The translations under genes were made by a program, and so were the position numbers. Below are positions 2,104 through 32,072 of a stretch of 46,542 bases of DNA, piece by piece. The notes below the pieces were generated by a model. The model saw nothing but the letters and a program-made list of their open reading frames with translations, searched no databases and had not been told where the DNA came from. The stretch comes from Candidatus Saccharimonadota bacterium (lineage in GTDB: Bacteria > Patescibacteriota > Saccharimonadia > Saccharimonadales > Saccharimonadaceae), in the NCBI GenBank assembly GCA_016286785.1, contig JAEEUB010000005.1, forward strand, positions 1-46,542. Reading direction: 5' to 3'. Position 1 is the stretch's first letter. Every line of letters begins with the position of its first letter.

Positions 2104-2732
2104 TCACCCCCTAATGCTGTTGGATTTGATCGCATTTTTTCCATTCTTTCAGCTGCTGCTTTTTTCTGTTCGTCCGTCATTCCGGGAGTACTGGCTACGA
2201 GGGCTTCATATTCTGCTACTGTTTCGTTGTCTCCAATTTCTTTTGCTAAGTCTACGATTTTTTGGTAATGTCGATGTTTTAAATTATCAGGGAAAATAGA
2301 CCAATCTACCGATTTTAATGCATCTAGCGCTTCTTTTTTGAAGCCTTTAGAAAGCAGATTGTCGTTTCTCCATAGTATATAGATTTGTGCATCGGAGTAG
2401 TCGCCTTCGTTAAGATATTGATTTATGACTGGGTTATATATTTCTAGGATATCTGATGCGACTACGTCTTCTTTGGATAGGATTGCATTGGCGGCTTCTG
2501 TTATTTCTTTATACTGATTTTGAAAATGATTAAATTTTGCTTGTTCTTCTTCGGTCATTGGGGTGGTGCTTGTGGTGACATCTGATTGGGCATTGTCTTG
2601 GCTAGGGGTGTTGGGGTTGCTGTGATTTACTAGAATAATATTTCCGATAGCTAACCCTACTCCTACTAGGAGTAGGATTGAAAGAATAAGAATTAGTACT
2701 TGATTGACTCGGTCTTTCCTGGTTTTCCCCAT
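2100..2732 (-). CDS. Small membrane-anchored extracytoplasmic protein, unknown function
   Basis: 210 residues. One N-terminal membrane segment (about residues 12-35, rich in L/I/V/G) follows a basic start (MGKTRKDR), so the C-terminal part should lie outside. A Ser/Thr/Asn/Gln linker leads into a helical domain (about residues 58-200) with the look of TPR-like helical pairs (for example YNPVINQYLNEGDYSDAQIY, then AKEIGDNETVAEYEALV). I do not recognise a named family. The start has a TGC-TATAAT box at 2739-2744, six bases before ATG, and no Shine-Dalgarno, so the mRNA is probably leaderless. The stop overlaps the start of the following surface-protein gene, suggesting the two proteins act together. 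Confidence 0.75.
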   Translation of the reverse strand: MGKTRKDRVNQVLILILSILLLVGVGLAIGNIILVNHSNPNTPSQDNAQSDVTTSTTPMTEEEQAKFNHFQNQYKEITEAANAILSKEDVVASDILEIYNPVINQYLNEGDYSDAQIYILWRNDNLLSKGFKKEALDALKSVDWSIFPDNLKHRHYQKIVDLAKEIGDNETVAEYEALVASTPGMTDEQKKAAAERMEKMRSNPTALGGE

Positions 2733-2771
2733 GTTTTTATTATAGCATAACCAGATTAATAGACAAAGCTT

Positions 2772-5072
2772 TTATTTTTTAGTCTTTTTGGTGGTTTTTC
2801 GGTGCCCGCGAGTACCGCGACGGGTGGTTTTGGGTTTGTTACTTAGCATCTCTTCTGCTTCGGCTTTAGTAATGGTTTTTGCGTTCTTTTCTTTAGGGAT
2901 TTTAACATTGTTGCGCCGCCCGGGGCCTTTTACGTATGGACCATATGCACCATTAATGATCATGATGTCTCCCCAATCGGCGATAATAGAATCTATTTTA
3001 GCCTGATATAGCGGTAAGGCATCTTCTAGTGAGATTGTGTAAGGATCAAAATCTTTAATTGGAATGTTGTATTTACCACCTTTTAAGTATGGACCAAATG
3101 GGCCGCTAGCCGCGACTAATTCTGCGCCGTCCTTCGCCTTTCCTAAAATGCGTGGCAGAGTCGGTAAGGCTAACTGTTTTAATGCCTGTTCTAATGTGAC
3201 GGTTTTTACGGATTTTCTTTTTGGTAGTGGCACAAAACGAGGTTTTTCGTCGTTTTCGGCCTTATTATCTTTTTTACTGTTGTCTCCTAATTGAATGAAC
3301 CCACCGTTTTTGCCAACTTTGGCGTAAATTGGTTTGCCGGTTTCTGGGTCGTGGCCTAAGAGTCTAGCATTATTAAAACGCTCTACTCCTTCAGCAATTA
3401 ATACAGTATCTCTAAATGGGCCGTAAAAATCTCGGAGCATTTTTACGCGCTCCAATTTAGCGTCGGCTACAAGGTCTAGATCTTTTTCGATATTGGCGGT
3501 GAACTTATAATCTACGATGTTTTTAAAATGATTGGTTAAAAATTCTGAGACCAATTCGCCGATTGGGGTGGGGATAAGCTTGCCCTTATTGGCACCATAT
3601 TTTTCGGAGATTACTGTGCGGTTGATTTTTGATGGGCCACTAGTTTTAAGTTCGATTATTTCTCGTTCTTCACCCTCGGATTCTCCCTTTATTACATATC
3701 CACGTGCTTGAATAGCTGTCATGATGGATGCGTAGGTGGAAGGACGCCCGATGCCAAGTTCTTCGAGCTTCTTAACTAGTGAACCTTCTGTATAACGAGC
3801 TGGTGGTTTAGCGAAGTTTTGTTTTGCGGTTAGTTCTAGGTAATCGATACTGTCGCCTTTTTTAAGTTTTGGTAATTCTAGGTCTTTGCTTTTGCCGTAA
3901 ATCTTTAAAAATCCGTCAAATATAACGATTTCGCCTTTGGCGGTAAAATCGTGAGATAATTTGATTGTGGTTTTGGCGACCTTGGCATTTGCCATTTGGG
4001 TGGCTACGGTTCTTGCCCATATTAGTTGGTAAAGTCGTTTTTCGTAGTTATTTTTGCCGGCACTAGTAACGGTAAAGTTGGTTGGGCGGATGGCTTCATG
4101 CGCTTCTTGGGCCGAAGCATCTTTAGTTTTGAAATGGCGAGTTTTTAAATAATTCACGCCAAAATTGGTTTTGATGTATCCTGCAATAGCGTTCGTGGCT
4201 TGGCTCGATAGATTTAGAGAGTCAGTACGGTGATAAGTGATGAGGCCGGCTTGATAAAGACCCTGCGCTGCGTTCATGGTGGTACGCGATGAATACCCAA
4301 GTTTGCTGTTCGCTTCAATTTGTAAAGCCGCCGTAGTAAGTGGCGTGGGACTGGCTTTTGTTCCCTCGGTTTCTTCGATATCTACAACTTTAAAGTCGGA
4401 TTCGGAAAGTTTTAGGAGCAAAGCTTTTGCTTCTTCTTCGCTTTTGGGGGCTTCTTTGTCGTAGTTTGCGACAAAAGAGGATTTTGAATCAGATTTTTTA
4501 AAATTCCCCGTGATTTTAAAGCTAAATTTAGAATCAAATTTTTCGATTTGCTTTTCGCGCTCTACGATTAGTCTTAGCGCCGGAGATTGCACACGGCCGG
4601 CACTAATGGCGCCCGGAACTTTTTTTCGTACGACATCTGATAAATCGTATCCTACGAGCATGTCTAGGGTTTGACGGGCTTGCTGACTAGCGACCATATC
4701 CATATCTACGGTGCGAGGATTTTTGATAGCTATTTCTAGAGCTGGCTTAGTAATTTCGTGAAAAGTGATGCGGGCGGTGTTTTTTGGTAACTTAAGAACT
4801 TCGCATAGATGCCAAGAAATAGACTCTCCTTCGCGGTCTTCATCAGTTGCTAGCCATATTTTGTCGGCTGCTCCTACGGCTTTTTTTAGCTCAGCGATGA
4901 TTTTTTTGTGCTCCGGATCGATCTCGTAAGTAACATCAAAAGTGCTTTTATCTACTTTTGTATCTTTACGAATGTGCCCTACGCTAGCTAAAACCTTAAA
5001 ATCGGACCCCAGATACTTTTCAATCGTGTGAGCCTTAGCCGGGCTCTCTACTATTACCAGATTTTTTGCCAT
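2772..5072 (-). CDS. topA: DNA topoisomerase I (type IA)
   Basis: 766 residues. It relaxes negative supercoils by transient single-strand cleavage through a 5'-phosphotyrosine. The TOPRIM domain starts at residue 1 (MAKNLVIVESPAKAHTIEKY) and holds the acidic motif DEDREGE at about 77-83. The catalytic tyrosine is Y280 in ITYHRTDS. GRVQSPAL and GIGRPSTYA are further family signatures. The C-terminus has Topo C-terminal repeats (GPFGPYLKGGKY, NGAYGPYVKGPGRR) and a Lys/Arg-rich tail; no tetracysteine zinc fingers are visible. I chose ATG at 5072 over the longer frame because TOPRIM domains begin there and the preceding 18 codons are unlike the family. A TACTAT box seven bases upstream and no Shine-Dalgarno suggest a leaderless start. 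Divergent from the small membrane gene at 5148. Confidence 0.97.
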   Translation of the reverse strand: MAKNLVIVESPAKAHTIEKYLGSDFKVLASVGHIRKDTKVDKSTFDVTYEIDPEHKKIIAELKKAVGAADKIWLATDEDREGESISWHLCEVLKLPKNTARITFHEITKPALEIAIKNPRTVDMDMVASQQARQTLDMLVGYDLSDVVRKKVPGAISAGRVQSPALRLIVEREKQIEKFDSKFSFKITGNFKKSDSKSSFVANYDKEAPKSEEEAKALLLKLSESDFKVVDIEETEGTKASPTPLTTAALQIEANSKLGYSSRTTMNAAQGLYQAGLITYHRTDSLNLSSQATNAIAGYIKTNFGVNYLKTRHFKTKDASAQEAHEAIRPTNFTVTSAGKNNYEKRLYQLIWARTVATQMANAKVAKTTIKLSHDFTAKGEIVIFDGFLKIYGKSKDLELPKLKKGDSIDYLELTAKQNFAKPPARYTEGSLVKKLEELGIGRPSTYASIMTAIQARGYVIKGESEGEEREIIELKTSGPSKINRTVISEKYGANKGKLIPTPIGELVSEFLTNHFKNIVDYKFTANIEKDLDLVADAKLERVKMLRDFYGPFRDTVLIAEGVERFNNARLLGHDPETGKPIYAKVGKNGGFIQLGDNSKKDNKAENDEKPRFVPLPKRKSVKTVTLEQALKQLALPTLPRILGKAKDGAELVAASGPFGPYLKGGKYNIPIKDFDPYTISLEDALPLYQAKIDSIIADWGDIMIINGAYGPYVKGPGRRNNVKIPKEKNAKTITKAEAEEMLSNKPKTTRRGTRGHRKTTKKTKK

Positions 5073-5147
5073 ATATATAATAGTAACACACTGCGTCAAG
5101 CATAAGAGCTGTTGTTTATTGGCCAAAGTTACGATAATATATAAGAT

Positions 5148-5486
5148 ATGGGTAGAAAAAAGACAATTAACAATCCGCTAATCTTGTCGCTTGCGTCAAT
5201 TGGCATCTCTTTCGTATTCATTATTAGTTTAATAGTAGCTAAAGCGAATAAAATATTAACGTATTCGTATTGCGTAAACAATGGATTCCGAGAAGATGAA
5301 TGTTTTACGGAAGTTTTTCTTATGCCATTAATGGCTTTTGCTTTAAGCATTTCTATCCTGCTTACTTGTAAGGCAGTAAAATATAGAAAGTTACACGTCG
5401 ATGCAATTCCAGTGATTTCTATTTCGGCCTTACTGGTTTTGATTGATTTGATTGTTCTTGCTTGTATGTTCGTTAGTTATGAATAA
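5148..5486 (+). CDS. Small three-helix membrane protein, unknown
   Basis: 112 residues with three predicted membrane segments (about 12-31, 62-80 and 88-108) and a short loop holding two cysteines (YCVNNGFREDECF) between the first two. The basic N-terminus MGRKK suggests the first helix starts inside. No family recognised. A GATAAT box (5133-5138) lies nine bases before ATG with no Shine-Dalgarno, similar to other probable leaderless starts here. A weaker open frame on the opposite strand (5129-5350) is taken to be a shadow. The existence of this gene is supported by its coherent membrane topology, not by homology. Confidence 0.6.
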   Translation: MGRKKTINNPLILSLASIGISFVFIISLIVAKANKILTYSYCVNNGFREDECFTEVFLMPLMAFALSISILLTCKAVKYRKLHVDAIPVISISALLVLIDLIVLACMFVSYE

Positions 5487-5643
5487 TGTATCACTTGGCT
5501 TATTGTCGTTGTTCAATTGATTGTACATATATTGAAAAACATCAAAGGATTAGTTAACTTAAGTATATGATACTGCACCCTTGTGGTTTTTGCATTGATA
5601 GCGTTGGTTTATAAGATAGTATTGGCACGAATTGGCTAAACAT

Positions 5644-5952
5644 CAAAAAACCCTCAGGTAAGGGTGGGCATCACCTGAGGGTATTTTGGCCCTCTAACGC
5701 TTCTCTGTTTTATACCGGGGAGACCCCGGAGCGTAACCCACCTCACACAAATTGGGGCCCGCCGGTTAGAGGGATTGCTAAGCCTTCGAAATGGTCCTTT
5801 CTAAGTGGAGGTAATACTTATAACTTAAAACCATGAAGAAATTTTAAGCTCGAAAGGGTTTCAAAAGCTCGCAATTTCTGCTACACTGGAAGCAGTATAG
5901 CTGAAATTATAACTTATTTAGGTGCGGTGTGGGGTGTTTTTGTGCCCCAACT
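5644..5952 (-). ncRNA. Structured ncRNA of about 309 nt with own promoter and terminator, family not assigned
   Basis: No open frame fits here, but the minus strand has a consensus promoter (TTGACA, 17-base spacer, TGA-TATAAT) and an intrinsic terminator about 300 bases on. Visible helices: AGTTGGGGC at the 5' end (5952-5944) with GCCCCAATT (5758-5750); CCCTCTAAC (5773-5765) with GTTAGAGGG (5698-5690); a hairpin at 5873-5908 with a 9-bp inner stem and CTTC loop; a CCGGGG/CCCCGG hairpin at 5715-5729; and CTTAAAA/TTTTAAG near 5850-5825. The first two helices interleave, so together they form a large pseudoknot. RNase P, tmRNA, SRP and 6S signatures were looked for and not seen. The raiA-type RNA, which is pseudoknotted and often sits near DNA-uptake genes, is one candidate, suggested only by the dprA neighbour. 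Confidence 0.75.
5645..5682 (-). terminator. Intrinsic terminator of the ncRNA
   Basis: Ten-base-pair stem ACCCTCAGGT / ACCTGAGGGT (5682-5673 and 5659-5650 on the minus strand) followed by a run of Ts. The T-run is much better on the minus strand than on the plus strand, which fixes the direction of the ncRNA. Confidence 0.85.
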
Positions 5953-5958
5953 GAGTTA

Positions 5959-5987
5959 ATTATATCACACGGGAGAATTTATGTCAA
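5959..5987 (-). promoter_or_regulatory. Consensus promoter of the ncRNA
   Basis: Minus strand: TTGACA at 5987-5982, spacer of exactly 17 bases, TATAAT at 5964-5959 preceded by TGA (extended -10). Predicted transcription start near 5952. The -35 box overlaps the start codon of the divergent dprA gene, so dprA and the ncRNA share control DNA. Confidence 0.85.
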
Positions 5988-6907
5988 CACTTTTTACACA
6001 CTTTTTTACAAAATTCAATCAAATTGTACCCCTGGAGAGTAATTTTACAGAGGTGTTAGAATCTATTGCGCTTAAGCCTAAAATATTGTATTTTCATGGT
6101 AAATTGCCAGAAAATGTGTCAAAAAATGGTGTGACAAAGCGACCAAAGGTTGTAGCTATTGTGGGGTCTCGCCGCAATACACGTTACGGCGAGGAAATAG
6201 CCTACGAGATGGCCTACGAACTGGCAAAGAGAGGAGTAATAGTTGTTTCTGGGCTTGCGTATGGGATTGATTCAATCGCGCATAAGGGGGCGTTAGATGC
6301 GGATGGGTGCACTGTAGCGGTACTAGGTACTCCTATAGATCAGATTTATCCCAGAGCTCATGAAAAATTAGCAAAAGACATCATAGCCCAGGGCGGCGCA
6401 ATTATTAGTGAGCTAGAACCCGGGGCTAAGTTTTATCCTAAAACTAGTTTTTTAAAAAGAAATCGTATTATTGCGGGATTGTCTGATGCTGTAGTAATAG
6501 TTGAGGCGGCGGTTCGCTCTGGGTCTTTAAATACTGCGGCGCATGCCTTAGAGCAAGGAAAAGATGTGTTTGCGGTGCCTGGGAATATTACAAGTCCATA
6601 CTCTATGGGTTGCAATAAGCTAATTCGGCAGGGGGCTAGTCCGTATACCTGCTTAGATGATCTTCTTAGTGTTTTGTTCCCTGAAGAATTTGTTCGGCGA
6701 CATAACGAAGCTGCTTTAAAAGTGCTCGCGGCAGACACTAAAGAAGAAGCCGCAATTTTGCAGGCCCTATCGCGAGGGCTCAGGACGGGTGAAGAGATAA
6801 TAGAATTTACTCAGCTAAGTGCGCAAATTTTTAGTCAGTTTATTACTCTACTTGAAATTAAAGGGCAGGTGCGTGCTCTTGGTGGCAACCACTGGAGTTT
6901 AATGTGA
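5981..6907 (+). CDS. dprA: DNA-processing protein DprA
   Basis: 308 residues. DprA binds incoming single-stranded DNA during natural transformation and loads RecA. The Rossmann-like core is clear: VGSRRNTRYGEE (about 61-72), SGLAYGIDSIAHKGAL (about 90-105), FLKRNRIIAGLSDAVVIVEA (about 157-176) and SGSLNTAAHA. The C-terminal part (about 255-308) looks like the winged-helix domain found in many DprA proteins. A GGGAG site five bases before ATG marks the start. The start region overlaps the -35 box of the divergent ncRNA. The stop is TGA, which argues against TGA recoding in this genome. recA, its usual partner, is elsewhere in this window at 33584. Confidence 0.95.
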   Translation: MSTLFTHFFTKFNQIVPLESNFTEVLESIALKPKILYFHGKLPENVSKNGVTKRPKVVAIVGSRRNTRYGEEIAYEMAYELAKRGVIVVSGLAYGIDSIAHKGALDADGCTVAVLGTPIDQIYPRAHEKLAKDIIAQGGAIISELEPGAKFYPKTSFLKRNRIIAGLSDAVVIVEAAVRSGSLNTAAHALEQGKDVFAVPGNITSPYSMGCNKLIRQGASPYTCLDDLLSVLFPEEFVRRHNEAALKVLAADTKEEAAILQALSRGLRTGEEIIEFTQLSAQIFSQFITLLEIKGQVRALGGNHWSLM

Positions 6908-8790: not shown

Positions 8791-10182
8791 TTATCTATCT
8801 TTTGACGAGACATCTCTAAAGGAAAAAGCAATAGGCGTACCAATTAGGGGGTATTTTTCGCGGATTTTACGTTCTAAGAATCTCTTCCACGACCAGTGCA
8901 GTAGCCCCAAATCATGGCCATACACGACGAACCAGGGTGGGCAGGTGTCGGTTTGTACCATGTATTTTGGCTTTGGTTTGGTGTTTTTGAGGCCGGCCGG
9001 AATATGAGAAGCGATGGCATCGTTTAAAATTTTATTGAGCTCCGAAGTTTTAATTTCTTGGTGGCGATTTTGATCGATTTCGCAGGCGAGCTCAAAGAGT
9101 TTTGTGACGTTTTTGCCGGTTTTAGAGCTAGTAATTAAGACTGGTGCGTAAGGCAAAAAGTCATAGTCGCGCTCCAAATCATTTAGAATTTCATCGATTT
9201 TTTCTGAGTCTTCTATGAGGTCTGATTTGGTAAGCACGATAATTATCCCTTTACCAGCGTCTACGATTTGTCCGGCCAAGGATTGATCTAATTTAGAATG
9301 TGGCTCTGTGGCATCAATTAAAAGTGCGCAAACATCAGACTCTTCAATGGCGGCGAGGCTTCTAATGGCGGAGAATTTTTCGATTCCTACTTCGCGTTTG
9401 CCGGGTTTTCTAAGGCCGGCAGTGTCTAGTATTTCTAAGTCTTGCCCGTTAAACTTAACGTTTACTCTGTTAATATCGCGCGTGGTTCCTTGCCTTGAGC
9501 TAACGATGGCTTGTTGCTTTTTTCCTAAGGAATTAAAAAGGCTACTTTTGCCTACGTTTGGCCTACCGATTAATGCGATTTTAAGATTCGTTTTGGAACT
9601 TACATCCGACTCGGGGGCGCGTCGCTCGCTCCCGTCGCCACGGGGCTCGCGCGCTAATCCTCGCCTTGCCAGGCTCCGGACCCCCCTTTGTTCGGACGTA
9701 AGTTTCAAAACCAAGTTTTTAAGTTCTTTAATTCCCTGCCCGGTAGTAGCGGAAGTGCGAAAAGTCTCACTTGGCTTAATGCCTAGTGATAAAAATTCTT
9801 CTGATTGAAGCGCCTCGCCTAAGTCCGATTTATTTAACACTAGCAGTACTGGTTTTTTAGATTTCAGGGCTTTTTTAGTGATTTCTTTATCGCGATAATC
9901 TGGATATTTGCTAGAATCTAGGGTGACCAAAATAATATCTGCAGTTTCAATGGCGTCTTCGATTTGTTCTTGGATGGAGGCCTCAAAATCGTCCGAAGGG
10001 TCCTTTAGGCCAGCGGTATCGATCAAAATAAAAGAATTGTCAATTGTGGCTACTACGTTGTCTCTAGTGGTGCCTTCTTCGCGAGCTACGATGGCGATGT
10101 TTTTTCGCGCTATACGATTAAGAAGGCTAGATTTTCCAGCATTGGTTTGTCCGATTAGTGCTACAATTGGCAAAGTTTTCAT
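8791..10182 (-). CDS. der: Ribosome-assembly GTPase Der (EngA) with an inserted linker
   Basis: 463 residues. Two tandem GTPase domains and a C-terminal KH-like domain, essential for 50S subunit maturation. First P-loop GQTNAGKSS (about 11-19) with DTAG and NKSD; second P-loop GRPNVGKSS (about 206-214) with DTAG and TKSD; KH-like end includes PPWFVVYGHD. Start at 10182 (MKTLPIVALIG) because the domain begins there; the longer frame adds 30 unrelated residues. A TATGAT box lies seven bases upstream and there is no Shine-Dalgarno. The linker between the GTPase domains (about residues 160-195, rich in R/E/G/S/A) is encoded by a GC-rich palindromic insert described separately. The protein is otherwise normal, so the insert seems tolerated. 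Confidence 0.95.
   Translation of the reverse strand: MKTLPIVALIGQTNAGKSSLLNRIARKNIAIVAREEGTTRDNVVATIDNSFILIDTAGLKDPSDDFEASIQEQIEDAIETADIILVTLDSSKYPDYRDKEITKKALKSKKPVLLVLNKSDLGEALQSEEFLSLGIKPSETFRTSATTGQGIKELKNLVLKLTSEQRGVRSLARRGLAREPRGDGSERRAPESDVSSKTNLKIALIGRPNVGKSSLFNSLGKKQQAIVSSRQGTTRDINRVNVKFNGQDLEILDTAGLRKPGKREVGIEKFSAIRSLAAIEESDVCALLIDATEPHSKLDQSLAGQIVDAGKGIIIVLTKSDLIEDSEKIDEILNDLERDYDFLPYAPVLITSSKTGKNVTKLFELACEIDQNRHQEIKTSELNKILNDAIASHIPAGLKNTKPKPKYMVQTDTCPPWFVVYGHDLGLLHWSWKRFLERKIREKYPLIGTPIAFSFRDVSSKDR
9597..9704. repeat. GC-rich palindromic element inserted in frame in der
   Basis: The ends are inverted repeats of 13 bases with one mismatch: AACTTACATCCGA at 9597-9609 and TCGGACGTAAGTT at 9692-9704. 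Between them the DNA is far more GC-rich than the flanks and includes G- and C-runs that extend the pairing. Length is 108 bases, exactly 36 codons, so the der frame is kept. It falls between the two GTPase domains, where extra residues can be tolerated. The layout resembles palindromic elements known to insert in coding genes (Rickettsia RPE type), but no second copy is visible in this window. Confidence 0.6.
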
Positions 10183-10258: not shown

Positions 10259-10287
10259 TTTACAATCCACATCTAATTATATACAAT
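10259..10287 (+). promoter_or_regulatory. Promoter for the phase-variable FISUMP gene
   Basis: TTTACA at 10259-10264, 17-base spacer, TACAAT at 10282-10287. ATG at 10294 follows six bases later, the same geometry as the other probable leaderless genes here. This places translation initiation upstream of the (AT)11 tract. Confidence 0.7.
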
Positions 10288-10293
10288 AGGCTT

Positions 10294-12197
10294 ATGTTAA
10301 GGGTCACACATCAAAATATGCACGCTTCATATATATATATATATATATATCAGTAATCTTATCTAGCCTCACCCTTCTTTCTGCCTCATTTCTTTCCTCT
10401 AGTACTACTTTTGCAGATGATTCTGTTGTAGACCAAGTCAATATCACCGTATCAGAATCCTGCTCTATGACGGGTGTTGGTATGGACTCCCATACTGCTA
10501 CTATTACCAACGGTGCTTATCAAGGAGATATCGGTACTACTACCATTAATGTTTTCTGCAACGATAACAGTGGTTTTGCAATCTATGCCATTGGCTTTAC
10601 AGGAGATCAATATACAGGAGAAGACCATACTAAGCTAATTGGCGCATCAAACGGAGGAAAGATTACTTCTGGCACAGCTACGTCAGGGAGCACATCTAAC
10701 TGGGCCATGAAACTAAATACGGTATCTAGCCCTACTCCAGCCTACCCTATTACTCTAGATAATGGCTTCGGGGGCTACAGTACTGTACCAGATACATACA
10801 CTAAAGTAGCTCATAGAGACGCTGGTACGGATGTAGGCACCAATGCGGAGGGCTCAACTCTAACAACGACTTATGCTGCCTTTATGTCCGGCACTCAGGC
10901 TGCAGATACTTATACTGGTAAGGTGAAGTATACATTAGTGCATCCATCAGCTGAAACCCCATTAGCTCCTCAACCCACGACAGCAGGATACATTAATTAT
11001 TATGCTAATGCATCTACAGCAGAAGGTACTATGGGTAGACAATCAGCCAGTGACGGTAATACCGTAACCTTATTTGCTTCTAACTTCTCTAGGGATGGCT
11101 ATGGTTTTGCTGGCTGGTCTGATGCATTTGACTATACCACTAATCCCAACGCTAACTTCTATGGCCCAAATGAAGACATAGTAGTACCAGAAGGCACTTC
11201 AGCTAATGGTTTAGCCTTATATGCTGTCTGGATTAAATCTGAAGGTAACTTCCAAGATTCTACTAAGGTAGCCCAACTCTGTGGTATTGGTGGTACTGGA
11301 GGAAGCCTAATTGCTGCTACCTATAATAATGAGGATGACGTCGATGAATCTACTTGGTCTATCACTGCGAGACTCTCTAGTATTTCCGCTCTAACTGATG
11401 CAAGAGATAACCAAACCTATGCTATCGCCAGATTAACTGATGGTAAATGTTGGATGATAGAAAACTTGAGACTCGCTGATACCCATAAGGAGGGGAATAA
11501 TACCGTAGCTACAATTCTAACTACAAGCAATACCAATAACCCATTAAACGATGGCACAAACGTCACATTGAAGTATAATTATGTAGATGCTACAACTTAT
11601 CCGACTCTTTCTGCTACTAGTTCTGATGCTACTAGCTGGTGCACTACTAACTCAGCAGCATGCGATGATCAGTCTAGACTTAGAACTGATAATGCAGCTA
11701 ATCGCGCATCATACCAAACAACTGACAGCATGTCCACTAGCGCCAATCTATATTCCTATGGCAACTACTACAACTGGTATTCTGCTACAGCGGGTAATGG
11801 GACATATAGTGGATCTAGCGGTAATACAGCAGGTGACTTATGCCCAGCTGGTTGGCATCTACCTACCGGTACTGGTTATGGGGAATTTGGACTACTTAGT
11901 AATAGTTTGGGCGGATACCAGAATAATGGTGTGGCTCAAACCATGAATAGCTCTACTAACCCAACAGGAGCCATCATGTCTAAAAGAGAGAGGCATTTTC
12001 CAAATAACATTCTTTACTCGGGCAACGTGAATGGTGCTTCTCTTAACGATCGAGGTAGCTACGGCTACTACTGGTCCTCCACGGCGTTCTATAGCAACAA
12101 CGCCTACTACCTGAGCCTCAACTCCTCGTACGTCTACCCAAGTACGCTCAACTACAAGTACAACGGAAGGACACTGCGTTGCTTAGCTAGCACTTAG
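10294..12197 (+). CDS. FISUMP-domain surface protein, out of frame at an (AT)11 tract (phase-variable candidate)
   Basis: From the promoter-matched ATG at 10294 the frame enters an (AT)11 tract and stops at 10354-10356. The long frame begins right behind the tract. Without a start codon it reads a hydrophobic stretch (SVILSSLTLLSASFL, then SSSTTFADD), which is the rest of a signal peptide. One AT unit fewer joins both parts. In this assembly only an internal ATG at 10467 opens the body (576 residues), which would lack a signal peptide. The body has the shared beta domain (NWAMK, AADTYTGKVKYT), a Flg_new-like repeat (about 173-250 from 10467; YGFAGWSDAFD, ALYAVW), and a C-terminal Fibrobacter-succinogenes-type (FISUMP) domain (YAIARLTDGKCWMIENL, GNYYNWYSATAG, CPAGWHLPTG, YWSS, ending LRC). 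FISUMP domains are known retroelement targets. Confidence 0.75.
10329..10350. repeat. (AT)11 dinucleotide tract in the signal-peptide codons
   Basis: Eleven perfect AT units lie between the likely start codon at 10294 and the long open frame. Dinucleotide tracts change length by slipped-strand mispairing; loss of one unit or gain of two would restore the frame, and other changes keep it closed. Read in frame it codes alternating Tyr-Ile, which is compatible with a signal-peptide core. Confidence 0.85.
12063..12182 (+). other. Candidate DGR variable region at the 3' end of the FISUMP gene
   Basis: Starting at the codons for GYYWSSTAFYSNNAYY, codon choice changes sharply. All five Asn codons are AAC and eight of nine Tyr codons are TAC, with TCC, CTC, GTC and ACG common, whereas the upstream body prefers T- or A-ending codons. 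The stretch is dense in Asn, Tyr and Ser and ends in a conserved RTLRC. This is the expected look of a diversity-generating-retroelement target, where adenines of a template repeat (AAC/TAC codons) are mutagenised. No template repeat or reverse transcriptase is in this window. Confidence 0.5.
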
Positions 12198-22821: not shown

Positions 22822-24393
22822 TTACCAGTATTTTACGATAACGCTAAGGTAATAAACTATGACGAATAGTCCGATTGCGACAGATAGAGTGACGATGATA
22901 TTGTTAATGAATGACTTATTGTCTTCTGATTCGGATTTGGCCAGCTTAGTTGATTGGCTATTTGTATTTGTTACTATAGAATCTTGATTGTCGTTAAATG
23001 CAATTATCCTGTCATCACCCTTACTGGTTTCTACTATTGTGACCGGGAGCGAGCTGTTTGGTTGTGCAGGTGTGGCCGATTCTACTGATGCTGAAGAGTT
23101 TGGGGTTGTTGAAACTTTTTGTTGCTCAGTTGACTTAGTGGTGGTTTTGACATTTGTCTTGGCTTTAGCTTCTGCTTCGGCCTTAGCCTTGGCTTCTGCT
23201 TCGGCCTTAGCCTTGGCCTCTGCTTCGGCCTTAGCCTTGGCCTCTGCTTCGGCTTTAGCCTTGGCCTCGGCGGCAGCTTTAGCTTTAGTCTTAGCTTCTG
23301 CTTCGGCCTTAGCCTTGGCCTCGGCGGCAGCTTTAGCTTTAGCCTCGGCGGCAGCCTTAGCTTTGGCCTCGGCGGCGGCCTTGGCCTTAGCTTCGGCTTT
23401 GGCTTTAGCTTCTGCTTCGGCCTTAGCTTTGGCTTTAGCTTCTGCTTCGGCCTTAGCCTTGGCCTCGGCGGCAGCTTTAGCTTTGGCACGATTGTTTGCA
23501 TCGGTTTTAGCATTATAATTAGTTACTTTATAAACGGAATAATGTTTCCCATCTGGTGCGCTATTAAACAATATGTATGGAGTACCATTTGCATCGAAAT
23601 CCATGCCCTCTATTTCGCTATATCCGGGTTTAATGTAAAAAGCATTTATAAAATTGCCGCTTAGATCGAATTGATAAATGACATTTGCTTTGTTGCCGAT
23701 GTTTTTGTTACAGAAATCGATGTTTTCTTGGGAACTTAGACTGTTGCATGGCGCCCAGGCAAGCCTGTAAAGATAGCCGTTCGAAAATGCGACATCTTGA
23801 TTTATTAGTCTGTGTCCAGCATCGAATGATTTTAATAGTTTAAAGTTACTGTTTAAAATTCTGCCTGAGGATTTGCCGCTACCGCTAGTTTGAATATACC
23901 AATCATCTTTGGCATCATAGGCGATGCCTGTCGCAGACTGGCCTTCCGTTATTTTGCCAACATATTTACCATTATCAGCATTAAATAGATGTTTAGTGGC
24001 TCCGTCTACAACAACAATTTGATTTTTTTTGCTGTTCCAAGCGGTTCCGTTGCCGTGGCCAATATTGTGCTTTGTTTTCCAGGCCGGGGTGGAACTAGGA
24101 TTCTTGCGGCTTGTAGCTACAATCCAGCCCGTATTATTGTTTTTGGAATGCGCTTGTGTTACGACGAAGTATTTATCCGTTACTGCAAGGCTCTGAGATG
24201 AGTCGATCGTGTTGTCTATTTCTGTGCCAACATATACTAGGGACAGATTAAGGCTTGTCATTTTTGAAGACGGAAGGTTAGCAATTTTGCTGTTTAAGGC
24301 TTTTGACGGTTGGTTACAGAACAGTGGCAGTACGCCAGGGGTGATTAATCCTAGAATCAATAAAAGATTTATTATAAGTTTCCTGATTTTCAT
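22822..24393 (-). CDS. Secreted propeller-like protein with Ala/Lys/Glu-rich stalk and C-terminal membrane helix
   Basis: About 523 residues from ATG at 24393; a TTG two codons earlier (24399) sits at better spacing from AGAAAGG and may be used instead. Signal peptide (MKIRKLIINLLLILGLITPG). Residues of about 40-290 look like a beta-propeller of NHL or six-bladed type (VYVGTEIDNTIDSSQSLAVTD, GHGNGTAWNSKKNQIVVVDG, GYSEIEGMDFDANGTPYILF). A region of about 115 residues is built from AKAKAEAE-type units, likely a long helical or coiled stalk. A Ser/Thr/Asn linker and a C-terminal membrane helix (FINNIIVTLSVAIGLFVIVYYL) follow. The design is a propeller head held away from the cell by a rod. No LPxTG motif was seen. 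Confidence 0.8.
   Translation of the reverse strand: MKIRKLIINLLLILGLITPGVLPLFCNQPSKALNSKIANLPSSKMTSLNLSLVYVGTEIDNTIDSSQSLAVTDKYFVVTQAHSKNNNTGWIVATSRKNPSSTPAWKTKHNIGHGNGTAWNSKKNQIVVVDGATKHLFNADNGKYVGKITEGQSATGIAYDAKDDWYIQTSGSGKSSGRILNSNFKLLKSFDAGHRLINQDVAFSNGYLYRLAWAPCNSLSSQENIDFCNKNIGNKANVIYQFDLSGNFINAFYIKPGYSEIEGMDFDANGTPYILFNSAPDGKHYSVYKVTNYNAKTDANNRAKAKAAAEAKAKAEAEAKAKAKAEAEAKAKAEAKAKAAAEAKAKAAAEAKAKAAAEAKAKAEAEAKTKAKAAAEAKAKAEAEAKAKAEAEAKAKAEAEAKAKAEAEAKAKTNVKTTTKSTEQQKVSTTPNSSASVESATPAQPNSSLPVTIVETSKGDDRIIAFNDNQDSIVTNTNSQSTKLAKSESEDNKSFINNIIVTLSVAIGLFVIVYYLSVIVKYW
23155..23495. repeat. In-frame tandem repeat coding the Ala/Lys/Glu stalk
   Basis: Degenerate repetition of short units coding AKA, AEA and AAEAK blocks. 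Units are multiples of three, so unit gain or loss keeps the frame and would change stalk length. Long open frames on the other strand and in other frames here are by-products of the repeat. Confidence 0.8.
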
Positions 24394-24481
24394 AGCCAAT
24401 AAAACCTTTCTCTATATTATGACATGATGAACTTACATCTATATTATATCATACTAATGGTAAAAATGCAATAATTAGACA

Positions 24482-28958: not shown

Positions 28959-31900
28959 ATGGGTTTAATAAACATAACTCTTAGAACTACTGGTGAAGAT
29001 CCTGACGTCCCTGTAGTTCCCGACGATCCGGTAGTTCCCGATGTGCCTGTGGTTCCCGATGATCCGGTAGTTCCGGGCGAACCTTCTGGTGAACCTCAGG
29101 CCAATAACGAAACCAGCCTTCCGGTGCCAAATACGGGAGAATATTCACGAGAAAAATCCCTTCAACTTACCCCGCTATTTATAGGCAGCATTATCATTGT
29201 ATTGATAATCGTGCTAACGATAATTGCTAGAAAGCTAAAAAATAATCACAAGGTTTTTGCTAGGAATAAAAGTTTTAGCATTGGCGCAAAAAAACAAAAG
29301 ATTTTTGCTGGTTTTTTTGTGCTTATAGCTGCATTTTTGACTCATGGGATACTAAATAGCGATGTTTCTAGAACCGAACCTACAAATGCGTTGCCGGGCT
29401 CTATTGCTATTAGCGCGGGCAATGTTGATCTTAATATTACTCGTACGGGAGACGAAGCGGTTTTTGGTTTTGTTAAAGATGAGGTTACGGTTATCGATGG
29501 AACAGACAACGGCTATACTATGGGTGTTTATGCGACAAGTGTTGATGTGATTTCGGAAGAAAGTGAAGAGAATAAAATAACTAATATTACTTCTAGTAAT
29601 TCGGCCCTAGAGCCGAACACTTGGGGAATTTCTGTTAATTCTCCAGAAAATCAAAATTCCGAAGTGTGGAATGCTATGCCAAAAAATCAGGACGATGCTT
29701 TAATTCTAAAGTCTATAGACTCAAGGACCGAAGCTTATGATACTACAGATGTTTATTATGGTGCGTATGTTGGTGCTGATTTACCTGATGGTGTGTATTC
29801 TGGAGTTACCGTAAACTATTTTGCAGTGGCTAACGTGGTGATTCCTGATGTATTCACATTATCATTTAACTCTAATAATGGTTCTGGGGCTTTAAGGGCG
29901 CAAGAATGCACGGTAACTGAATCTGCTGAATCGTGTTCGGTTACGGTTCCTTCTACTATGCCAACCAGAAGCGGCCACACGTTTAAAGGCTGGGCGGATA
30001 CCAGTACCGCTACCACTCCTAAGTATCAGCCTGGTGGTACAGTTGAGCTAAGAGCCAATAAGACAATTTATGCGGTTTGGAGTCAGAACACGGTTACTCG
30101 TACGCTGTCCTTTGATGCAAATGGTGGTACTGGAGCTCCTAGTGCACAGTCTTGCGTTGCAAAAGGGACCGTAACAACTTGCTCTATTGTGAGTACTTCC
30201 ACCGTCCCAAGTCGCTCTGGATATACGTTCCTAGGATGGGGAGATGCGGCGGACGCTACCACAAGTGAATATGAGGCAGGTGAAACGATAGTGTTAAATA
30301 GTGATAAGACCATTTATGCCGTCTGGAAAAAAGAACAAACCGTTAGTACGTTTAAGCTTTCCTTTAATGCAAATGGTGGTACTGGAGCTCCTAGTGCACA
30401 GTCTTGCACTACTACGGCTTCGTCGTGTTCTGTTACGGTTCCATCTACTAAACCGACTCGTACAAATTATACCTTTAAGGGCTGGGCGACCACGACCAGT
30501 GCTAGTGCCGCCAAATATAATCCTGGCGATAGTGTTGCTTTGTCTAAAAATACAACCATATATGCAGTCTGGAAGAATAATTACACGATAAAGTTTAATG
30601 GTAATGGTAGCACTAGTGGTTCTATGTCTAATCTTGCCATGGTTTATGGAACGGCTAAGAATCTTACAGCGAATACTTTTGTAAAAACTGGTTATACTTT
30701 TTCTGGTTGGAATACTAAAGCCGATGGTAGTGGTACGGCTTATGCCAACAAGCAATCCGTAAATAACCTTACCAATACGGCTGGCGGAATCATTAACTTG
30801 TACGCTCAATGGAAGGGTCAGAGTGGAAAGATTCATTTTATTAGTACTGGTAATAGTAATGCTTTTCTGATTGAAAGTAATGGCCACTATGGCTTGGTCG
30901 ATGCTGCAAATCCACTCTATCCGGCAAATTCTTCTGATGTGACGACCTGTATGAGTGATGCGACTTGTGTTAGCAATTCTGCCGATACTGTATCGCACGT
31001 GGTAACCTACCTTAAAAAAGTAGGCGTTACGACGCTAGATTTTATCGTTGCGTCACATTCTCACTCTGATCATATTGGCGGTATGGCTAAGATTGCTAAA
31101 GAGGGATTTGTTAATTCAAAAACACAGTATTACTATCGTCCTTATGTTGGCGCCAAAGAAGATACATATACTGGACAAAACAGTTGGCATAATCGCGACT
31201 TTTATAATCGGGCCATCAACGCAATGCGTAGTGCGGGAGCTAAGCTTATCAATGTAACTAATAAAGTGACTGAACTTAGTTTAGGTGATTTTAGCCTTAC
31301 AATACTCAATGCCGAAGAAGCGACTGCTTCAGAAAAAGTGAATGGTGTTTGCGAGGATGAGAATGTAAATTCTCTCGTAGTCCTTGCCAAGGTTGGAAGT
31401 AAAAAAACATTACTTGCCGGTGATATGGAAAAGCTCGATGAAGACAAGGTGGCAAAGAAAGTTGGAGTAGTTGACATTTTGCAAATGGGGCATCACGGAC
31501 TACCGACTTCTACATCAGTTGATTTCTTGAAGGTAATAAAGCCAAAAACGGCTATAATTCCGTCTAGGGATTTTTCGTCGAGCAATAGGCAGTGGGGTGG
31601 CATGGCTTATGCGCATAAGAATTTGGGGACGAAGTTTTATATGACTGGTCATACGAGCGATGCTATTATCGTAACGTTTAATAATAATACTTATTCTTTG
31701 AGTGATTATGGTAAGACCTCGACTAGTACGAAAATAAGTATAACCACTGAAAGTTCGGGTAAGGGTGAATGGGTGAAGTTTGACTTTAAGAATAATAATA
31801 TTTTCTGGTCTCATTTGGACTCGAATGGGGCGGTAAGCGAAGGCTGGAGGCAATTGGATTACCATGGTCGCACCGATTGGTACTATTTTGACGGTGACGG

Positions 31901-32072
31901 TAGAATGATGAAAGACGAATGGAGAGAGATAGAGTATCAAGGAAAAATAGAGTGGTTCTACTTTGATTCTAGCGGTAGGATGGTGACGGGTTCGCGAACG
32001 ATTAATGGCGAGTCATTTGGATTTAGATCTGATGGAGTATGTAACAGTGGACGAGGATGTCCGCATCCATAA
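28959..32072 (+). CDS. Surface metallo-beta-lactamase-fold protein with InlB-type repeats and cell-wall-binding repeats
   Basis: 1037 residues. The N-terminus is odd: PDVPVVPDDP repeats, VPNTG (56-60), a membrane helix (about 72-90) and a basic stretch, which is the usual look of a protein's C-terminal sorting region. A second hydrophobic segment (115-132) then acts like a signal. Next come the shared beta domain (145-300), four Flg_new/InlB-type repeats (about 299-376, 380-457, 463-539, 542-620), a metallo-beta-lactamase domain (about 624-910) with H700-x-H702-x-D704-H705, D822 in LLAGD and H845/H846, and choline-/glucan-binding-like repeats (about 936-1022; WYYFDGDGRM, WFYFDSSGRM). The MBL type is like the ComEC C-terminal nuclease. 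AAAAAGGA precedes ATG. Probably an extracellular hydrolase held at a wall or host surface. Confidence 0.85.
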   Translation: MGLINITLRTTGEDPDVPVVPDDPVVPDVPVVPDDPVVPGEPSGEPQANNETSLPVPNTGEYSREKSLQLTPLFIGSIIIVLIIVLTIIARKLKNNHKVFARNKSFSIGAKKQKIFAGFFVLIAAFLTHGILNSDVSRTEPTNALPGSIAISAGNVDLNITRTGDEAVFGFVKDEVTVIDGTDNGYTMGVYATSVDVISEESEENKITNITSSNSALEPNTWGISVNSPENQNSEVWNAMPKNQDDALILKSIDSRTEAYDTTDVYYGAYVGADLPDGVYSGVTVNYFAVANVVIPDVFTLSFNSNNGSGALRAQECTVTESAESCSVTVPSTMPTRSGHTFKGWADTSTATTPKYQPGGTVELRANKTIYAVWSQNTVTRTLSFDANGGTGAPSAQSCVAKGTVTTCSIVSTSTVPSRSGYTFLGWGDAADATTSEYEAGETIVLNSDKTIYAVWKKEQTVSTFKLSFNANGGTGAPSAQSCTTTASSCSVTVPSTKPTRTNYTFKGWATTTSASAAKYNPGDSVALSKNTTIYAVWKNNYTIKFNGNGSTSGSMSNLAMVYGTAKNLTANTFVKTGYTFSGWNTKADGSGTAYANKQSVNNLTNTAGGIINLYAQWKGQSGKIHFISTGNSNAFLIESNGHYGLVDAANPLYPANSSDVTTCMSDATCVSNSADTVSHVVTYLKKVGVTTLDFIVASHSHSDHIGGMAKIAKEGFVNSKTQYYYRPYVGAKEDTYTGQNSWHNRDFYNRAINAMRSAGAKLINVTNKVTELSLGDFSLTILNAEEATASEKVNGVCEDENVNSLVVLAKVGSKKTLLAGDMEKLDEDKVAKKVGVVDILQMGHHGLPTSTSVDFLKVIKPKTAIIPSRDFSSSNRQWGGMAYAHKNLGTKFYMTGHTSDAIIVTFNNNTYSLSDYGKTSTSTKISITTESSGKGEWVKFDFKNNNIFWSHLDSNGAVSEGWRQLDYHGRTDWYYFDGDGRMMKDEWREIEYQGKIEWFYFDSSGRMVTGSRTINGESFGFRSDGVCNSGRGCPHP

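Follow-up and report, generated by a model that had tools for sequence, protein, structure and literature searches.

A probable phase-variable, DGR-target-type surface gene with an AT-repeat tract in its signal peptide from a Saccharibacterium

The locus described here raises the question of whether a run of AT dinucleotides inside signal-peptide codons decides if a secreted protein is made. It lies in a stretch of 46,542 nucleotides (hereafter the window, to which positions refer unless a genome is named), i.e. positions 1 to 46,542 of contig JAEEUB010000005.1 in assembly GCA_016286785.1. An original prediction had described a surface gene of a Saccharibacterium that is switched by its dinucleotide repeat and stands OFF in this assembly. 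The assignment of the source is supported by the closest named relatives, which are Candidatus Saccharibacteria MAGs, many of them from sheep or goat gut. The features of the locus are collected in Table 1, together with one cassette from a related genome.

Table 1. Features of the window gene and of a DGR cassette in a relative
Feature	Position	Strand	Basis or remark
Sigma70-like promoter TTTACA-17-TACAAT	10259..10287	+	Consensus scan; leaderless layout, 6 nt between -10 box and ATG
Start codon and n-region of signal peptide (MLRVTHQNMHAS)	10294..10328	+	Aligned with MLKVTHQNTHVS in L050
(AT)11 switch tract (putative)	10329..10350	+	TRF, 100% match; YIYIYI when in frame
h-region and cleavage region of signal peptide (SVILSSLTLLSASFLSSSTTFA)	10350..10415	+	Out of frame with the window ATG
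Premature TAA in the ATG frame, assembled allele	10354..10356	+	Translation
Mature secreted protein	10416..12197	+	Open frame; stop codon 12195-12197
List_Bact_rpt (Flg_new)-like repeat, sub-threshold	10995..11183	+	2.2e-4, 21.7 bits against a cutoff of 27
FISUMP / Fib_succ_major domain, C-terminal	11391..12185	+	TIGR02145 1.1e-17; PF09603 6e-9
DGR variable-region-like segment	12024..12178	+	AAC/TAC-rich codons; homologous to relatives' VRs with adenine-specific TR differences
Stretch near-identical with L050, spanning the stop codon	12174..12221	+	Alignment
DGR cassette L226 (G047:C13:133500-143000)	RT 2732-3904; TR about 2522-2632; target FISUMP gene 4877-6580		Target with (AT)10 leader

Start codon, repeat tract and reading frames

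In the assembled allele, the frame beginning at ATG 10294 encodes MLRVTHQNMHASYIYIYIYQ, 20 codons in all, and then meets a TAA, and the frame of the downstream body reads SVILSSLTLLSASFLSSSTTFADD... as far as the stop ending at 12197. The body frame opens just 3' of a stop at the -10 box and remains intact for 615 codons up to 12194, and it contains no ATG, GTG or TTG before or within the AT tract. The ATG joins the body frame when one AT unit is lost or two are gained. The original prediction had set out this arrangement, namely a leaderless ATG behind the promoter, a frame cut short after the (AT)11 tract, the second half of a signal peptide in another frame without a start codon, and a complete secreted protein on either change in unit number. 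Its coordinates for promoter and start were confirmed, the tract and the early stop were recovered by TRF and translation, and the rescue by -1 or +2 units holds by frame, with the form of 10 units matching the leader of the closest homologue described below. The window tract meets the membership tests of a perfect short tandem repeat beyond chance and of unit gain or loss that toggles the frame of an otherwise intact gene. It is the single tract of at least nine AT units (10329-10350) in the 766,527-bp genome. Judged by its letters, the putative promoter is a weak consensus match, and promoter-like matches in the window region are near chance level (8 found vs 6.5 expected); a TATAAT is found at a comparable distance from the start in the homologues L050, L009, L156 and L161.

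The position of the start and the state of the assembled allele can be judged from the closest homologue, L050 (72% at the amino acid level; CAMYUU010000003.1, a Candidatus Saccharibacteria MAG). Its N-terminus, MLKVTHQNTHVSCIYVYISVILSS..., is collinear with the 10-unit reading of the window gene, it starts at the equivalent ATG, and its leader of 18 aa equals the window 10-unit form in length. This leader, MLKVTHQNTHVSCIYVYI-SVILSSLTLL..., is encoded in frame without a perfect repeat, and at 10 units the window leader would read MLRVTHQNMHASYIYIYI-SVILSSLTLL.... The homology between the two loci begins at the promoter, the gene upstream being different, and L050 has 2 nt less between the flanks. 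Because L050 is collinear with 10 units and correspondingly shorter, ATG 10294 is taken as the real start and the 11-unit allele, as read from the assembled bases, as OFF, which supports the predicted state; each individual allele call, this one included, may nevertheless err by one unit through assembly. A start at Met 10467 was rejected, since it would drop A22, V34 and C38 of the body, which lie N-terminal to this Met and are invariant in 21 homologues. The invariance of A22 likewise bears out the displaced second half of the signal peptide.

The window genome also contains a paralogue (C16, L009), whose homologous leader, MLKSYSKTNFSLYIFVV, lacks the repeat. In the species G165, a MLKSYSKTNFSLYIFVV-type leader carries (AT)11 in that very place and is out of frame, i.e. 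OFF. Because the tract occurs there in a C16-type leader, we infer that the AT repeat arose in two different leaders at an identical position.

Some other features of the window were recorded. A GC-rich stretch of roughly 100 bp (9600-9705) lies in frame within a Der/EngA-like GTPase gene and encodes an Arg-rich linker. A protein with a long KAEAEAKAKA-type repeat (22822-24399) derives from a degenerate 24/48-bp tandem array, which is not a frame switch because the array is in frame. Finally, a 1037-aa protein (28959-32072) combines List_Bact repeats, a ComEC-like metallo-beta-lactamase domain and choline-binding-like repeats.

AT tracts in leaders and promoter spacers of the genus

Tracts of at least nine AT units are present in 33/174 congeneric genomes. 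When their contexts were read and judged by eye, 24 tracts were found in or beside signal-peptide leaders that consist of an n-region, (IY)n, a hydrophobic stretch and a cleavage site. Such leaders belong to FISUMP genes in the window genome, G052, G047, G165 and G027, and to other secreted families in G122, G139, G142, G036, G114 and G068. A strict automatic signal-peptide rule, which demands an ATG within 60 nt, an N-terminal position, a tract followed by a hydrophobic stretch and a cleavage motif, and a body of at least 90 aa, was fulfilled by 15/45 evaluable tracts vs 4.0% of 30,000 random control positions sampled over 400 kb of these genomes (8.3-fold, p=1.2e-10). This ATG and cleavage-site rule replaced a first one that allowed GTG/TTG starts and had a background of 8%. 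Since it was tightened after a first pass, with the data already seen, and since related loci are not fully independent, the p value is indicative only; on the other hand the strict rule is conservative, because the window gene and several other clear examples fail it. Among the leaders with a clear ATG and body (n=21), 10 are in frame (ON) and 11 out of frame (OFF). A constant function would predict all of them in frame and a free-running repeat about one third.

Longer tracts of at least 10 units distinguish the genus from the remainder of its order (7/43 congeneric vs 2/252 other genomes, p=2.6e-5). Unit numbers differ at homologous loci, being 9, 9 and 11 in G068, 10 and 12 in G100, and 16 in G154 vs 11 in G041. 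A scan of viral contigs with the 5' flank for same-species variants gave 0 matches. Several single cases may be recorded separately. One of the cases outside the genus, L241 (G192:C9:23166-23188) from another family of the order, shows a window-like layout of TATAAT, ATG, (AT)11.5 and signal peptide. The genome G027 alone contains at least seven tracts of at least nine units, mostly in signal-peptide leaders, with several near contig ends and with mixed frames. The loci L151 (G154:C5:27690-27721) and L180 (G041:C1:97495-97516) are orthologous intergenic tracts of 16 and 11 units with flanks about 90% identical and no evident gene effect.

A second class of tracts lies in promoter spacers. FISUMP genes of G100 and G159 are preceded by TTGATA-(AT)n-TACAAT, in which the spacer measures 17 for n=10 (two cases) and 21 for n=12, and three homologous promoters in the one genome G068 read TTGACC-(AT)n-TACAAT with spacers of 18, 18 and 22, where (AT)9 goes with spacer 18 and (AT)11 with spacer 22. 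The membership test of a hifA-type spacer with unit-dependent -35/-10 spacing is met for L129, L153, L158 and L182-L184, not for the window.

Loss of mismatch repair increases slippage in dinucleotide tracts. In this regard, MutS (TIGR01070) was found in 0/60 genomes and MutL (TIGR00585) in 0/60 above cut-off, with controls matched in both searches; the sub-cut-off matches to TIGR00585 are short (~45 aa) and resemble generic ATPase domains. The missing MutS/MutL could also favour a reading without any selected switch, in which IYIYIY is merely a tolerated hydrophobic stretch and AT repeats result from mutation bias in AT-rich genomes without mismatch repair, and long intergenic tracts without evident gene effect, such as L151 and L180, are in line with it. 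However, bias alone predicts a scatter over the genome and not an eightfold concentration in leaders, tracts are also placed exactly between the -35 and -10 boxes of secreted-protein genes, and roughly half of the tracts in signal peptides break the reading frame, a costly condition unless it is tolerated or of use. We therefore regard mutation bias without selection as unlikely.

Somewhat less credit is given to an error of assembly or sequencing, by which the real tract would be constant and in frame and the gene always expressed. Both PCR and short-read assembly are prone to stutter at AT repeats, so that 11 units can be miscalled by one, and 26/54 genus tracts lie at most 400 bp from a contig end vs 1.7 expected, hence assemblers do struggle with them. 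An error at this single locus leaves aside, however, that 11/21 comparable leaders are out of frame in other assemblies, that long perfect tracts recur at this position in unrelated genes, and that a leader of constant function needs no perfect repeat, as L050 and C16 encode theirs without one. The contig ends themselves can only partly be accepted as a sign of length heterogeneity. In G047, a 97-bp leader is common to two contigs, and repeated leaders can therefore break assembly. In G118, two contigs (C1:10-27 and C3:1-18) both end inside one AT tract; since this tract is continuous in G155 (L152), the G118 flanks look unique, and length heterogeneity in the sample is possible.

The gene could also be an OFF pseudogene that lately became fixed through a single slippage event, without reversible switching. 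One frameshift would suffice for the assembled allele, many paralogues exist, and this reading cannot be excluded. Its chance appears small, because the remaining frame of 615 codons bears no other lesion and is similar to expressed-looking relatives, the lesion is a repeat change and as such reversible, and random decay would not be expected to enrich tracts at 5' coding and promoter positions across the genus. Least probable is transcriptional or ribosomal slippage that yields low protein from an out-of-frame allele without a switch in the DNA, since repeat tracts can indeed cause polymerase slippage but the promoter-spacer class would be left unexplained.

The FISUMP protein and its variable-region-like 3' end

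The membership test of a surface or secreted target is met by signal peptide and FISUMP domain, on sequence grounds only. The window genome contains several close paralogues, full or partial, and matches number at least a dozen in many congeneric genomes. Structural prediction added little, because the AF2 models (mean pLDDT 53.9 for the full-length protein and 57.5 for the domain) are too poor to show a fold, including the C-type-lectin-like one that would mark the variable domain of a DGR target, and Foldseek gave no significant match with these poor models. Neither a sequence relative in the PDB nor a phage homologue was found, and Rfam reported only tRNA near the gene.

The 3' end of the gene resembles the variable region (VR) of a diversity-generating retroelement (DGR). 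Between window and L050, 27/30 nucleotide differences within this region fall at codon positions 1-2 vs 157/371 elsewhere (p=3e-7), and across 50 relatives invariant framework residues take turns with hypervariable columns (N/Y/S/G/D). The membership test of a 3' variable region with AAY-type codon variation on a conserved framework is met at the family level. The near-identical stretch that follows could, by inference, mark where the VR homing target ends.

In relatives the machinery is present. RVT_1 reverse transcriptases occur in 95/170 congeneric genomes, often several in each, and 9/9 RT loci examined have adenine-specific TR/VR pairs; in the best pair of each locus, the best 70-nt windows show 6-15 changes, all at TR adenines and with no other mismatch. 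One locus, G047:C13, unites RT, TR, 3' VR and a FISUMP gene whose (AT)10 signal peptide is in frame (ON), and its RT matches RVT_1 (3e-11) and phrog_1423 (3e-68). A 318-aa ORF in this cassette (L226, 3865-4821) has no family match in Pfam, NCBIfam or PHROGs and is a candidate accessory protein. The window assembly (97% complete, 25 contigs) yielded no detectable DGR reverse transcriptase and no TR-like copy differing from the VR at adenines; a DGR of this genome may be absent, lost or unassembled. Since RT and TR are lacking, the window gene is called DGR-target-type and not a member of a demonstrated DGR. The status of its own 3' end as a DGR variable region is inferred, and shown for relatives. 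If this inference holds, the family would combine on/off switching with hypermutation of a C-terminal binding face.

Proposed switching and its place among known systems

Collectively, our data support the notion of a secreted FISUMP protein whose translation is switched ON and OFF by (AT)n slippage in signal-peptide codons, to which we assign a probability of about 0.8, although reversible switching has not been observed. The gene is thus best described as a probable phase-variable surface gene of DGR-target type, for which no length data from within a population or from a second strain of the species were at hand. To this extent the dinucleotide switch of the original prediction is upheld, as the placement of tracts recurs above background and alleles in mixed frames occur in the genus. 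Slippage would alter the AT number, so that 10, 13 and so on units yield a full-length precursor for export, and other numbers, by translation, a short peptide of about 14-20 aa. Frequent changes of tract length during replication may be inferred because mismatch repair is absent, and ON and OFF cells would then coexist in mixed populations. The exported protein would present a variable C-terminal face, which the DGR signatures show at the family level, in the absence of binding data.

Saccharibacteria live on other bacteria. Hence, the combined variation probably serves varied contact with the bacterial host or escape from phages or antibodies, where host-cell contact is our leading guess and escape the alternative; again, no binding data are at hand. 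A wider proposal has, in our judgement, only slightly better than even prospects, i.e. that this genus of gut Saccharibacteria without MutS/MutL runs two layers of surface variation, AT slippage in signal peptide or promoter spacer as an on/off layer for FISUMP and other secreted proteins and DGR hypermutation of the FISUMP C-terminal face, which together would supply host recognition or evasion with a combinatorial repertoire. Contingency-locus phase variation is known mainly from pathogens; if our reading is true, it extends to CPR bacteria, and a DGR target gene with its own SSR switch would be the first case known to us. The repeat-switched secreted proteins, which belong in part to a DGR-diversified family, would then be a candidate repertoire for host recognition and host change in Saccharibacteria. 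Genome databases probably misannotate or fragment such genes, because an OFF allele is annotated without its signal peptide and tracts tend to lie at contig ends.

Dinucleotide-repeat phase variation as such is already known from signal peptides (oipA) and promoters (hifA/B), but AT-repeat switching in Saccharibacteria has apparently been unreported until now. Full-text literature searches, with most subscription papers outside their coverage, returned no report of SSR phase variation in Saccharibacteria/Patescibacteria or of SSR switching of a DGR target, which for this reason is not proof of novelty. Cellular DGRs are abundant in CPR bacteria (PMC8144416), and Fib_succ_major is among the domains known from DGR targets (PMC4159848). 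Relatives of the window gene share with such targets the C-terminal FISUMP domain, the adenine-specific TR/VR differences and an RT beside the target, whereas the window's own genome lacks a detectable RT/TR, and no description was found of such a target with an on/off repeat upstream within the gene. The hypervariable repeat protein of Gracilibacterium BD1-5 (PMC6851277) is likewise a CPR protein with repeat-based variation and a predicted surface location, but its 9-mer repeats are in frame, vary synonymously and include no frame-switching tract. In the hifA/hifB promoter of H. influenzae, (TA)9-11 changes the -35/-10 spacing (PMC2651432), and the spacer loci of the relatives also set this distance by TA number; their targets, however, are FISUMP or undetermined genes and not pili, and the window locus is the coding version. 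In H. pylori oipA, a CT-repeat switch lies within the codons for the signal peptide of a surface protein (PMC10564699). The window gene too has a dinucleotide repeat in signal-peptide codons, the unit number of which decides the frame. It differs in that the repeat is AT instead of CT and encodes IYIYIY before the h-region, that it belongs to a CPR bacterium, and that AT tracts recur in several unrelated secreted families, of which the FISUMP proteins are also DGR targets.
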